Assembly: GCA_947452905.1 (NCBI GenBank)
Contig: CANGEP010000007.1
Span: forward strand, 1 to 64,000
Reading direction: 5' to 3'
Length of the DNA stretch: 64,000 nucleotides
Origin: Bacteroidota bacterium
Lineage (GTDB): Bacteria; Bacteroidota; Bacteroidia; Chitinophagales; Chitinophagaceae
Part shown: in pieces, positions 37,983 to 40,535 of the stretch
Position numbering within the stretch: the stretch's first letter is position 1
How the letters are laid out: each line of letters begins with the position of its first letter
Notes under the pieces: generated by a model
What the model was told of the DNA's origin: nothing
Databases searched by the model: none
What the model saw: the letters and a program-made list of their open reading frames with translations, nothing else
Program-made: the position numbers and the translations under genes

Positions 37983-38546
37983 ATGGCAACAACTTCAGAC
38001 ATCACACGTGGAATGATTTTGAAATTAGATGGTAGTTTATACTCAGTAGTTGAGTTTGGTGAGAACAAAACAGCTCGTGCAGCTGCAAAGGTTTGGGCTA
38101 AATTAAAAGGAGTAGACAACAAAAGATCGATTGAGAAAACTTGGAATAGTGGTGAAACCGTTTTCCCTATCAGAGTAGAGAAAAAGACCTTTCAATTCTT
38201 ATATAAGGATGATAGTGGGTATAATTTAATGAATAACGAAACTTTTGAGCAAATCGTAATGGCAGAGGAAATGATTGATGCTCCTCAGTTTTTAATGGAT
38301 GGTGCCGAAGTATTCGTGTTTATGAATACTGAAACCGAACAACCTATTGGTGCCGAATTGCCAGAAAAGATTGATGTTTTAATAACTTATTGTGAGCCCG
38401 GTGTTAAAGGAGATACTGCTACACGTGCTTTAAAAGCAGCTACCATCGAGTCGGGTGCTACTGTAATGGTTCCTTTGTTTGTAAACGAAGGTGAAAAAAT
38501 AAAGATTAATACCAAGAACGGCGAATACGTAGAACGCGTTAAATAA
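37983..38546 (+). CDS. efp: Elongation factor P, Arg32-type modification loop
   Basis: 187 residues with the three EF-P domains: KOW-like domain I (1-63), OB domain II and the C-terminal OB domain III with the family signature ending KGDTATRALKAATIESGATVMVPLFVNEGEKI. EF-P relieves ribosome stalling at consecutive prolines. The tip of domain I is unusual: instead of the PGKG loop with Lys34 it reads NKTARAAAKVW, which lines up with the Arg32 loop of Pseudomonas EF-P (NKSGRNAAVV), the rhamnosylated type. Whether R32 is modified is unknown; no earP or epm gene is in this window. I chose the ATG at 37983 (MATTSDITRGM) because the family starts there. A strong terminator separates it from accB. 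Confidence 0.95.
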   Translation: MATTSDITRGMILKLDGSLYSVVEFGENKTARAAAKVWAKLKGVDNKRSIEKTWNSGETVFPIRVEKKTFQFLYKDDSGYNLMNNETFEQIVMAEEMIDAPQFLMDGAEVFVFMNTETEQPIGAELPEKIDVLITYCEPGVKGDTATRALKAATIESGATVMVPLFVNEGEKIKINTKNGEYVERVK

Positions 38547-38597: not shown

Positions 38598-38703
38598 TAG
38601 GACTTATCAATTTATCCCCAAAAAGCCCTGATTTTGACAAAAAATGCCCAATTATTTGTGTTTTTCGATAAAAAAACCCCAATTTTACCCAAAATTGCCA
38701 AAT

Positions 38704-39168
38704 ATGGACTTAAAACAAATTCACGATCTAATTAAAGTAGTTAACAAAAGTAATATCGGAGAAATTAGCATCGAAGACAAGGATGGTAAAGTAACCATCA
38801 AGCAAAAAGAAGAAAAAATTACAGTGAGCTCGGCGCCTGCTCAAGTATATACTCAAGCACCTGCTGCTCCAGTGGCTTCTGCCCCTGCGGCTCCATCAGC
38901 ACCTGCTGCTGCTCCAGTAGCTGATAATTTAATCACCATTAAAAGCCCCATGATTGGTACTTTTTATCGTCGTGCTGCTCCAGATAAACCTTTAATGGCA
39001 GAAGAGGGCACAGAGGTTAATGTTGGAAAAGTGGTTTGTATCATCGAAGCCATGAAACTGTTTAATGAAATTGAATCTGAAGTAAAAGGTACTATTGTGA
39101 AAGTATTGGTTGAAGATGCTAGCCCAGTAGAATACGACCAACCTTTATTCTTGGTTCAACCAGCGTAA
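38704..39168 (+). CDS. accB: Acetyl-CoA carboxylase biotin carboxyl carrier protein
   Basis: 154 residues. An N-terminal dimerisation helix and strands (MDLKQIHDLIKVVNKSNIGEISIEDKDGKV) are followed by an Ala/Pro linker (44-72) and the biotinyl domain with EAMKLFNEIE; K118 is the biotinylated lysine. It carries the carboxylate between AccC and the carboxyltransferase in malonyl-CoA synthesis. The frame is open back to 38644, but MDLKQI at 38704 is the family start. It is 29 bases upstream of accC and co-transcribed with it. Confidence 0.96.
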   Translation: MDLKQIHDLIKVVNKSNIGEISIEDKDGKVTIKQKEEKITVSSAPAQVYTQAPAAPVASAPAAPSAPAAAPVADNLITIKSPMIGTFYRRAAPDKPLMAEEGTEVNVGKVVCIIEAMKLFNEIESEVKGTIVKVLVEDASPVEYDQPLFLVQPA

Positions 39169-39197: not shown

Positions 39198-40535
39198 ATG
39201 TTTAAAAAAATATTGATTGCCAATCGTGGCGAAATTGCCCTGCGTATTATTAGAACCTGTCGTGAGATGGGGATTAAAACCGTAGCAGTTTATTCTACTG
39301 CCGATAAAGATAGTTTACATGTAAAATTCGCGGACGAAGCTGTTTGTATTGGTGGACCCAAAGGTTCAGAATCTTATTTGAATATCCCACATATCATGGC
39401 TGCTTGTGAAATTACCAACGCAGATGCTGTGCATCCTGGATATGGTTTTTTAGCAGAGAACTCAAAATTTGCACAAATTTGTTTGGATCATGGCATTAAG
39501 TTTATTGGCCCAACCCCAGATATGATTAATAAAATGGGGGATAAGATTACGGCTAAAGAAACCATGATTAAAGCAGGTGTTCCAGTGGTTCCAGGTGGTG
39601 AAGGGTTATTAGAAAGTGTAGACGCTGCAAAAATATTAGCAAAAGAAATAGCTTACCCAGTTATTATTAAAGCTACTGCAGGTGGCGGTGGTAAAGGAAT
39701 GCGTGTGGTGTGGAACGAATCAGAAATCGAGAAAGCATTTAACGATGCTAAAATGGAAGCTGCAGCAAGTTTCAAAAATGATGGTTTATACATGGAGAAA
39801 TTTGTGGAAGAGCCAAGACATATTGAAATTCAAGTGGCAGGAGACCAATATGGAAGCGTATGTCATTTGAGTGAACGTGATTGTTCAATTCAAAGAAGAC
39901 ACCAAAAATTAGTTGAAGAATCTCCTTCTCCATTTATGACTCCTGAACTTCGTGATAGAATGGGGACAGCAGCAATAAAAGCAGCAAGTGCCATTAACTA
40001 TGAAGGAGTAGGAACTATTGAATTTTTAGTAGACAAGCATCGCAATTTTTACTTCATGGAAATGAACACGCGTATTCAGGTAGAGCATTGCGTTACCGAA
40101 GAAGTAGTGAGCTATGATTTAATTAAAGAGCAAATAAAAATTGCTGCAGGCGAAAAAATATCTGGCCGCAATTACGAACCTCAATTGCATGCTATTGAGT
40201 GTCGTATCAACGCTGAAGATCCCTACAATGATTTTCGTCCTTCGCCAGGAAAAATAACTGTATTACACACCCCAGGTGGTCATGGTGTGCGTATCGATAG
40301 CCATGTGTACACTGGCTATGTGATTCCGCCTTATTATGATTCCATGATTGGAAAACTAATTACAGTTGCACAAACTCGTGAAGAAGCCATTAATACTATG
40401 TATCGCGCTTTAAGTGAGTATGTTATTGAAGGCGTAAAAACAACCATACCTTTTCACTTGCAATTAATGCAAAATGAAGATTTTAGAAAAGGAAATTTTA
40501 CTACTAAATTCTTGGAGACATTCAAAATGAAGTAA
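39198..40535 (+). CDS. accC: Acetyl-CoA carboxylase biotin carboxylase subunit
   Basis: 445 residues, standard length. The biotin carboxylase N-domain starts [25 protein letters not shown]; the ATP-grasp part has [14 protein letters not shown] and the metal/bicarbonate site [16 protein letters not shown]; the C-domain follows. It carboxylates biotin on AccB with ATP and bicarbonate. accA and accD are not in the window. The duplicated hairpin module downstream (40618-40774) probably ends the transcript. Confidence 0.98.

Follow-up and report, generated by a model that had tools for sequence, protein, structure and literature searches.

An arginine-tipped elongation factor P of Lys-type descent in the Chitinophagaceae

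The efp locus and the domain I tip of its product

The window, that is, the whole stretch of 64,000 nucleotides analysed here, belongs to a genome (G000) of 2.29 Mb in 18 contigs with a completeness figure of 100%. The following features of the window are considered in this study:

37983..38546, plus strand: efp, elongation factor P (EF-P), 187 amino acids plus stop (TIGR00038, NF001810, EFP_N, EFP, Elong-fact-P_C)
38064..38108, plus strand: residues 28-42 of EF-P (NKTARAAAKVWAKLK), the remodelled domain I tip loop and the next strand (alignments of family f1)
38076..38078, plus strand: CGT codon of Arg32, the tip residue, equivalent by alignment to E. coli Lys34
38644..39168, plus strand: accB (TIGR00531, over cut-off)
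39198..40535, plus strand: accC (TIGR00514, over cut-off)

The efp frame opens with the ATG at 37983 and closes with the TAA at 38544-38546, giving a product of 187 residues; an upstream TTG would provide an alternative start, and the alignments of the relatives in family f1 begin at the ATG. The product passed the cut-offs of two curated models, TIGR00038 (195.7 bits, cut-off 185.8) and NF001810 (196.7 bits, cut-off 161), and all 3 Pfam domains (EFP_N, EFP and Elong-fact-P_C) were matched, so that it has both the domain composition and the curated score by which membership in EF-P was judged. The EFP_N profile had a single match in G000, on which grounds a second canonical efp or an EfpL gene was rejected; none was found in this genome, and the reading given in the preliminary description is thus not disturbed by another efp carrying the usual loop.

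Curated scores identify the neighbours of efp as sucD (succinate-CoA ligase alpha), accB and accC, in agreement with the earlier remark that earP is not beside this gene. An accB homologue lies near efp in 33/34 f1 loci (up to 20 kb) as well as in 18/20 sister loci encoding Lys-type EF-Ps (up to 8 kb), the corresponding figures for accC being 33/34 and 17/20; accB is therefore an ordinary, old neighbour. When the open reading frames of L217-L250, the 34 f1 loci that extend to at most 20 kb, were clustered, efp, accB and accC each came out 33 times, efp being detected by tblastn in all 34. They were followed by a lactate/malate dehydrogenase (25 loci), a thioredoxin-like protein (24 loci; AhpC-TSA, under the cut-off) and other frames in at most 13 loci, and this clustering revealed no gene other than accB and accC in nearly all of the 34 loci.

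The domain I tip of the window EF-P reads GENKTARAAAKVWAKLKGVDN, in which the stretch N28-K-T-A-R32-A-A-A-K forms the tip itself. It aligns without gaps to the KPGKG of other Bacteroidota, pairing K29 with K, T30 with P, A31 with G, R32 with K and A33 with G, and the EFP_N match places residues 3-60 of the protein on profile positions 1-58; it is on this gapless alignment and this profile match that R32 is assigned to the Lys position. The Arg at residue 32 announced in the preliminary description is hence borne out (codon CGT, 38076-38078, placed by the gapless alignment at the Lys of PGKG), and its equivalence in sequence to position 32/34 appears sound, since no contrary alignment came up and the EFP_N register agrees with the gapless one. 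A residue-by-residue match to the Pseudomonas EF-P had been put forward as well. The likeness is real, 9/15 of the loop residues 28-42 being common to the P. aeruginosa protein, but the comparison misleads, because the window loop is KTARAAA and not [KR]SGRN[AS]A. Over the same residues the window protein has 8/15 in common with Thermus EF-P, 7/15 with a typical Lys-type loop of Chitinophagales and 4/15 with E. coli EF-P. Residues 28-42 are also the most conserved 15-residue stretch of EF-P among 84 f1 sequences, with a mean conservation of 0.994 versus 0.844 for the whole protein.

Two AlphaFold2 models (m02fb3fd8da9c and me96809653017), both built from f1-only alignments (30 and 67 rows), had pLDDT values below 50 over most of residues 1-61 in domain I and placed a low-confidence helix at the tip (29-41 or 31-41). 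The tip of solved EF-Ps is a hairpin, unlike this modelled helix, which is likely an artefact or noise of the near-invariant alignments. As domain I is poorly predicted in both models, the equivalence of R32 rests on the alignment of sequences. A Foldseek search with the first model had Thermus EF-P (1UEB) as best match, followed by other EF-Ps.

Distribution and descent of the Arg tip

Family f1 is taken as the Chitinophagaceae from the titled close relatives of the window protein, which include Sediminibacterium at 95, 92 and 90% identity, further Chitinophagaceae and many records titled "Bacteroidetes". When searched against 298 Chitinophagales genomes, the window protein was matched in 84/85 f1 genomes with 60-100% identity, and outside f1 identity was 42-53% among the matches listed. 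Arg occupies the tip in 84/84 of the f1 EF-Ps read from these 85 genomes, and the motif KTAR[AS]AA was found in 165/165 rows (161 KTARAAA and 4 KTARSAA). These rows comprise the 84 f1 loops and 80 titled loci, with L001 and L037 being the same place counted twice and with a possible overlap of species between the two sets; the titled loci, the top 80 among 563 relatives, were chosen by their likeness to the query and are thus no free sample, and the titled relatives were found with six short query peptides, one of which (VVEFGENK) extends into the loop. At the DNA level, the loop pattern was present in 369/394 f1 genomes (319/331 of those of good quality), whereas the reversed-pattern control gave 0 among the matches listed, so that the occurrence of the pattern is not due to chance. 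Among the matches listed, synonymous sites of the f1 loop DNA vary and Arg is encoded by both CGN and AGR codons; the residues are conserved despite this synonymous variation and mixed codon use, which places the tip under strong selection. The Arg-tip EF-P is therefore a trait of family f1.

The exact loop pattern was missing from 25/394 f1 genomes, some of them 99-100% complete (G718, G757, G807, G882, G637 and G745), and assembly gaps, an AGY codon for Ser33 or genuine variants may account for these cases. The pattern-less genomes that are 97-100% complete are G718, G757, G807, G882, G745, G808, G874 and G637, three of which belong to genus g317; G637 also had no EF-P match in the protein search of Chitinophagales. 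A different irregularity was noted at L075, in a record titled Comamonas sp., which encodes an EF-P of the Chitinophagaceae type with 91% identity and is probably mislabelled or a mixed bin.

The preliminary description had recommended an alignment of EF-P beyond the window, and across the Chitinophagales it contrasts the 84/84 Arg tips of f1 with PGKG in 23/23 EF-Ps from 14 other families (L167-L186, L190, L191 and L194); the protein search of the order showed 22 family codes, of which f56, f58, f60, f63, f69, f73 and f75 lie outside this tip reading. The Lys-type EF-Ps of Chitinophagales resemble the window protein in whole-protein kinship and in the efp-accB-accC neighbourhood, and differ from it in the PGKG tip at all 23 loci. 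The same tip was read in 30 loci of the phylum (L007-L036), which represent the 30 best EFP_N scores and no free sample. A further 30 Bacteroidota loci, chosen mainly for a weak domain score and including three f62 loci that are among the 23, encode 31 EF-P copies with Asn (24), Lys (5) or Arg (2) at the tip. The Asn-tip proteins (HRTPGNLRAF; L193, L195-L212 and others) have neither Lys nor Arg at this position, and one of their genes (L201 of f3, 1495-2052) adjoins a second one encoding an EF-P with PGKG (2177-2734). The two Arg tips outside f1, QTGRGGAY in L189 (G196, f33) and FMGRGSGF in L213 (G365, f55), come from the 395 phylum genomes in which EarP was not matched and fall apart from f1 in the tree; they are further EarP-less Arg-type lineages.

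Comparison of 20 Lys-type Chitinophagales with the 84 f1 sequences yielded 11 near-fixed differences, counted where a single residue was present in 95% or more of f1 and a different one in 90% or more of the Lys-type relatives. Of these, 10 are located within residues 28-45 and the remaining one is at residue 148 (hypergeometric P 4e-11 for the clustering, in a range chosen post hoc). A tree of 76 rows, computed with a quick method and with the loop columns left out, grouped the f1 rows in a single clade (100*) that lies among Lys-type EF-Ps of Chitinophagales, nearest to f57 and f70 through unstarred branches. In the same tree a separate clade (99*) holds the EarP-type rows, Thermus is placed beside E. 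coli EF-P (unstarred) and EfpL sits on a long branch whose placement is unsure. We thus show, as far as comparison of the proteins can tell, that the f1 EF-P descended vertically from a Lys-type (PGKG) EF-P and that its tip was switched in place. N28, R32 and the gapless likeness to Pseudomonas, together with the TAR that E. coli EfpL and the window EF-P have in common, could also be read as traces of a horizontal transfer, by which f1 would have acquired an EarP-type or EfpL-type efp and later lost the modifier. The position of f1 in the loop-less tree, among the Lys-type rows and apart from both the EarP-type clade and EfpL, makes this scenario very improbable. Further against it is the identity of 42-53% to other Chitinophagales (among the matches listed) versus 23-40% to six EarP-linked EF-Ps. 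Acquisition of an EarP-type gene was accordingly rejected on the loop-less tree.

Modification systems and other Arg-type factors

EpmA (TIGR00462) was found over the cut-off in 0/149 Chitinophagales genomes; among the controls of this search, 3/14 genomes matched, E. coli included, and 2 were over the cut-off. The best match in G000, a frame of 506 amino acids, scored 235.3 bits versus a cut-off of 286.9; it was rejected as EpmA and, judged by its length, is taken for a lysyl-tRNA synthetase. The window EF-P therefore has neither the Lys tip nor the accompanying EpmA which together would mark it as a beta-lysylated EF-P, and its Lys-type relatives in the Chitinophagales also seem to be devoid of the EpmA system.

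Rhamnosylation of R32 by an EarP encoded elsewhere in the genome was one of the options raised by the preliminary description. The EarP profile (PF10093) had no match in G000, matched 0/395 Bacteroidota genomes at E 0.001 and exceeded the cut-off in 0/85 f1 genomes, a set made up of G000, 13 genomes from the 395-genome search and 71 from the search that included positive controls. These controls, six EarP-bearing records from a plasmid collection, were run together with 72 f1 genomes and were all matched (6/6, E 5.5e-162 to 3.3e-99); the searches of G000 and of the 395 genomes had no control match. Sub-threshold matches of 11-15 bits (E 0.02-0.30, cut-off 25) appeared in six f1 genomes, and the profile scores 385.9 bits on the meningococcal EarP. 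The EF-Ps linked to EarP have loops of the form [KR]SGRN[AS]A in 6/6 records, and earP adjoins efp in 4/4 annotated EarP records inspected. The window EF-P agrees with this type in its Arg tip without Pro at -2 (R32 and T30), but its genome had no PF10093 match and its loop is KTAR[AS]AA, with Ala31, instead of SGRN with Gly31. In P. putida EF-P the G31A substitution has been reported to lower the in vitro rhamnosylation rate to less than 1%, Gly31 being called crucial both for the efficiency of modification and for function, and the G31A protein was still fully modified in cells with overproduced EarP (PMC6544042).

The dTDP-rhamnose genes, which were also proposed as a check, turned out to be present at least in part: rmlC of G000 is over its cut-off, and rmlB and rmlA are represented by adjoining -like frames named by eye. 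This rmlB-rmlC-rmlA-like cluster lies on contig 2 of G000 (L264, 401-2923), and dTDP-rhamnose may be made in this organism, perhaps for a surface polysaccharide. The alignment of R32 to the same position as the Pseudomonas Arg and the presence of these rml genes are what an unlinked EarP has in its favour; with PF10093 found in none of the f1 or other Bacteroidota genomes searched while 6/6 controls were recovered, and with Ala31 where Pseudomonas has Gly31 (PMC6544042), we give it practically no credence. At profile level this enzyme was excluded in the 85 f1 genomes, so that this option of the preliminary description was dropped.

Arg-type EF-Ps without EarP are already known, Thermus and Borrelia being the cases in point, and G000 similarly joins an Arg tip to a genome without EarP. 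Thermus thermophilus EF-P (1UEB; 4V6A on the ribosome) resembles the window protein in the Arg32 tip and in its 8 shared loop residues, which include K36, V37, A39 and K40, but keeps Gly around the tip (KLGRGGAK); no EarP match was obtained in the control genomes, Thermus composti included. Borrelia is described as combining Arg32 with no EarP (PMC4739656). The EarP-activated EF-Ps of Pseudomonas, Neisseria and Shewanella have the place of R32, the lack of Pro at -2 and the canonical loop length in common with the window EF-P, and differ in their SGRN tip and adjacent earP, the window protein having KTARA and no earP. E. coli EfpL (YeiP, 8S8U) presents the tip SPTARGAA, and therefore the same T-A-R followed by A-A, but its loop is two residues longer, with a Pro in front, whereas the window EF-P is of canonical length and shows a two-column gap in the alignment to EfpL. 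Moreover, EfpL is a paralogue that E. coli has beside a Lys-type EF-P, unlike the single EF-P of G000, and the window protein stays under the curated EfpL cut-offs (TIGR02178, 84.2 versus 264.05 bits; NF003392, 100.5 versus 216 bits). The longer loop is what the authors of the EfpL study propose as the reason why that protein works without modification (PMC11611912).

The Arg tip has been reported for 14.75% of 1166 EF-Ps (PMC6544042) and EarP for about 10% of bacteria (PMC5615199), and Arg without Pro has been inferred to predate EarP (PMC6544042). Our literature search on EF-P with Chitinophaga, Chitinophagaceae or Bacteroidetes found no published family-wide Arg-tip case in the Chitinophagaceae, and the sets of 1166 sequences (PMC6544042) and 4736 genomes (PMC11611912) may well contain such sequences.

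Possible modes of action of Arg32

On balance, we favour the reading that the sole EF-P found in G000, a protein of Lys-type descent whose tip was rebuilt in place, works with an unmodified Arg32. Two options of the preliminary description, modification of R32 by another enzyme and function without modification, bear on this point, and the latter is better supported, since EarP was found in 0/85 f1 genomes and EpmA over the cut-off in 0/149 Chitinophagales and since the loop differs from the substrate motif of EarP. The rebuilt residues of the tip loop and of the following strand are N28, T30, A31, R32, A33, K36, W38 and A39, and the change would date from the base of the Chitinophagaceae or before. 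The plain Arg32 would then contact the CCA end and the 23S rRNA in the way of its Thermus counterpart, for which contacts with C75 and 23S phosphates have been reported (PMC2821294), and the altered loop and strand would stand in for the missing modification. Two modification-free routes, a stiffer loop in actinobacterial EF-P and a longer loop in EfpL, are distinguished by the EfpL authors, who found R33 of E. coli EfpL to be unmodified by mass spectrometry and required for function (PMC11611912). By analogy, we infer that the window EF-P may represent a third design for modification-free work, based on TAR, a canonical-length loop and K36/A39. The analogy with EfpL is tempered by the nature of TAR, which is a three-residue likeness, one column out of register in our alignment and read from the E. 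coli EfpL only.

That a bare Arg following Ala would be active is not self-evident. When tested in E. coli, the P. putida and S. oneidensis EF-Ps lacking their modification either had no activity or were inhibitory, K34R left E. coli EF-P with about 20% activity and G33A or G33S abolished its function (PMC6544042). Modification is required for full activity of the EarP-type proteins from P. putida and S. oneidensis (PMC6544042) and of that from N. meningitidis; in its unmodified form the meningococcal EF-P has been reported to work partially on the ribosome of its own species (PMC4739656), which counts among the precedents for a bare Arg. The requirement for modification speaks for an enzyme missed by the EarP profile that would modify R32 (by a glycosyl, methyl or other group) and would constitute a third activation chemistry arisen with the family, a possibility that deserves consideration even if we think it rather unlikely. 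The tip, practically invariant in the 84 f1 sequences and present as a pattern in most of the 394 genomes, behaves as a recognition site would, but near-perfect conservation of the loop fits both a bare Arg and recognition by an enzyme. A weak lead is provided by a family 9 glycosyltransferase (PF01075), which lies on the same strand as efp, 2.4-9.5 kb away, in 11/34 f1 loci (11 by tblastn and 10 by clustering; for example the heptosyltransferase-type frame at L245, 4174-5166) and about 1.8 kb from efp in 4/20 f1 loci of 8 kb, being downstream of efp in some f1 loci and found in none of the 20 sister loci, which span up to 8 kb. As a candidate for acting on EF-P it is a weak one and is given little weight, because most of the f1 loci examined do not have it; it is likewise absent from the 64-kb window. 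Family 9 glycosyltransferases mostly act on lipopolysaccharide; the one near efp scored under the cut-offs of the named lipopolysaccharide heptosyltransferase models. It also counts against a dedicated R32-modifying enzyme that, accB and accC aside, no neighbour is common to nearly all of the f1 loci, and that EfpL works bare (PMC11611912).

A weakened or lost role of EF-P in polyproline synthesis, with the protein put to some other use and factors such as ABCF proteins or YebC2 taking over, seems improbable. Proteins with PP motifs are slightly fewer in f1 (177/528) than in the sister families (107/275) within the stretches compared, though not significantly so (Fisher P 0.14). PP motifs persist, as does the PPP of ValS, a client of EF-P, and conservation within the protein is highest at the tip. 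The retention of PPP in ValS and of PP motifs that are not clearly depleted suggests that EF-P is still needed in this family.

EF-P, which prevents ribosomal stalling at consecutive prolines, occurs in nearly all bacteria, and the activation of its tip varies by lineage. The Chitinophagaceae, a family with cultured members, constitute a natural swap experiment in this respect, with 10 of the 11 near-fixed EF-P differences gathered at the tip and with neither EarP nor a scored EpmA. It can tentatively be proposed that the founders of the family found their own solution to the exchange of Lys for Arg, either a new enzyme acting on R32 or a third modification-free design in a loop of canonical length. 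Whichever of the two holds, an enzyme new to EF-P or a factor that does without one, would be useful for translation engineering.
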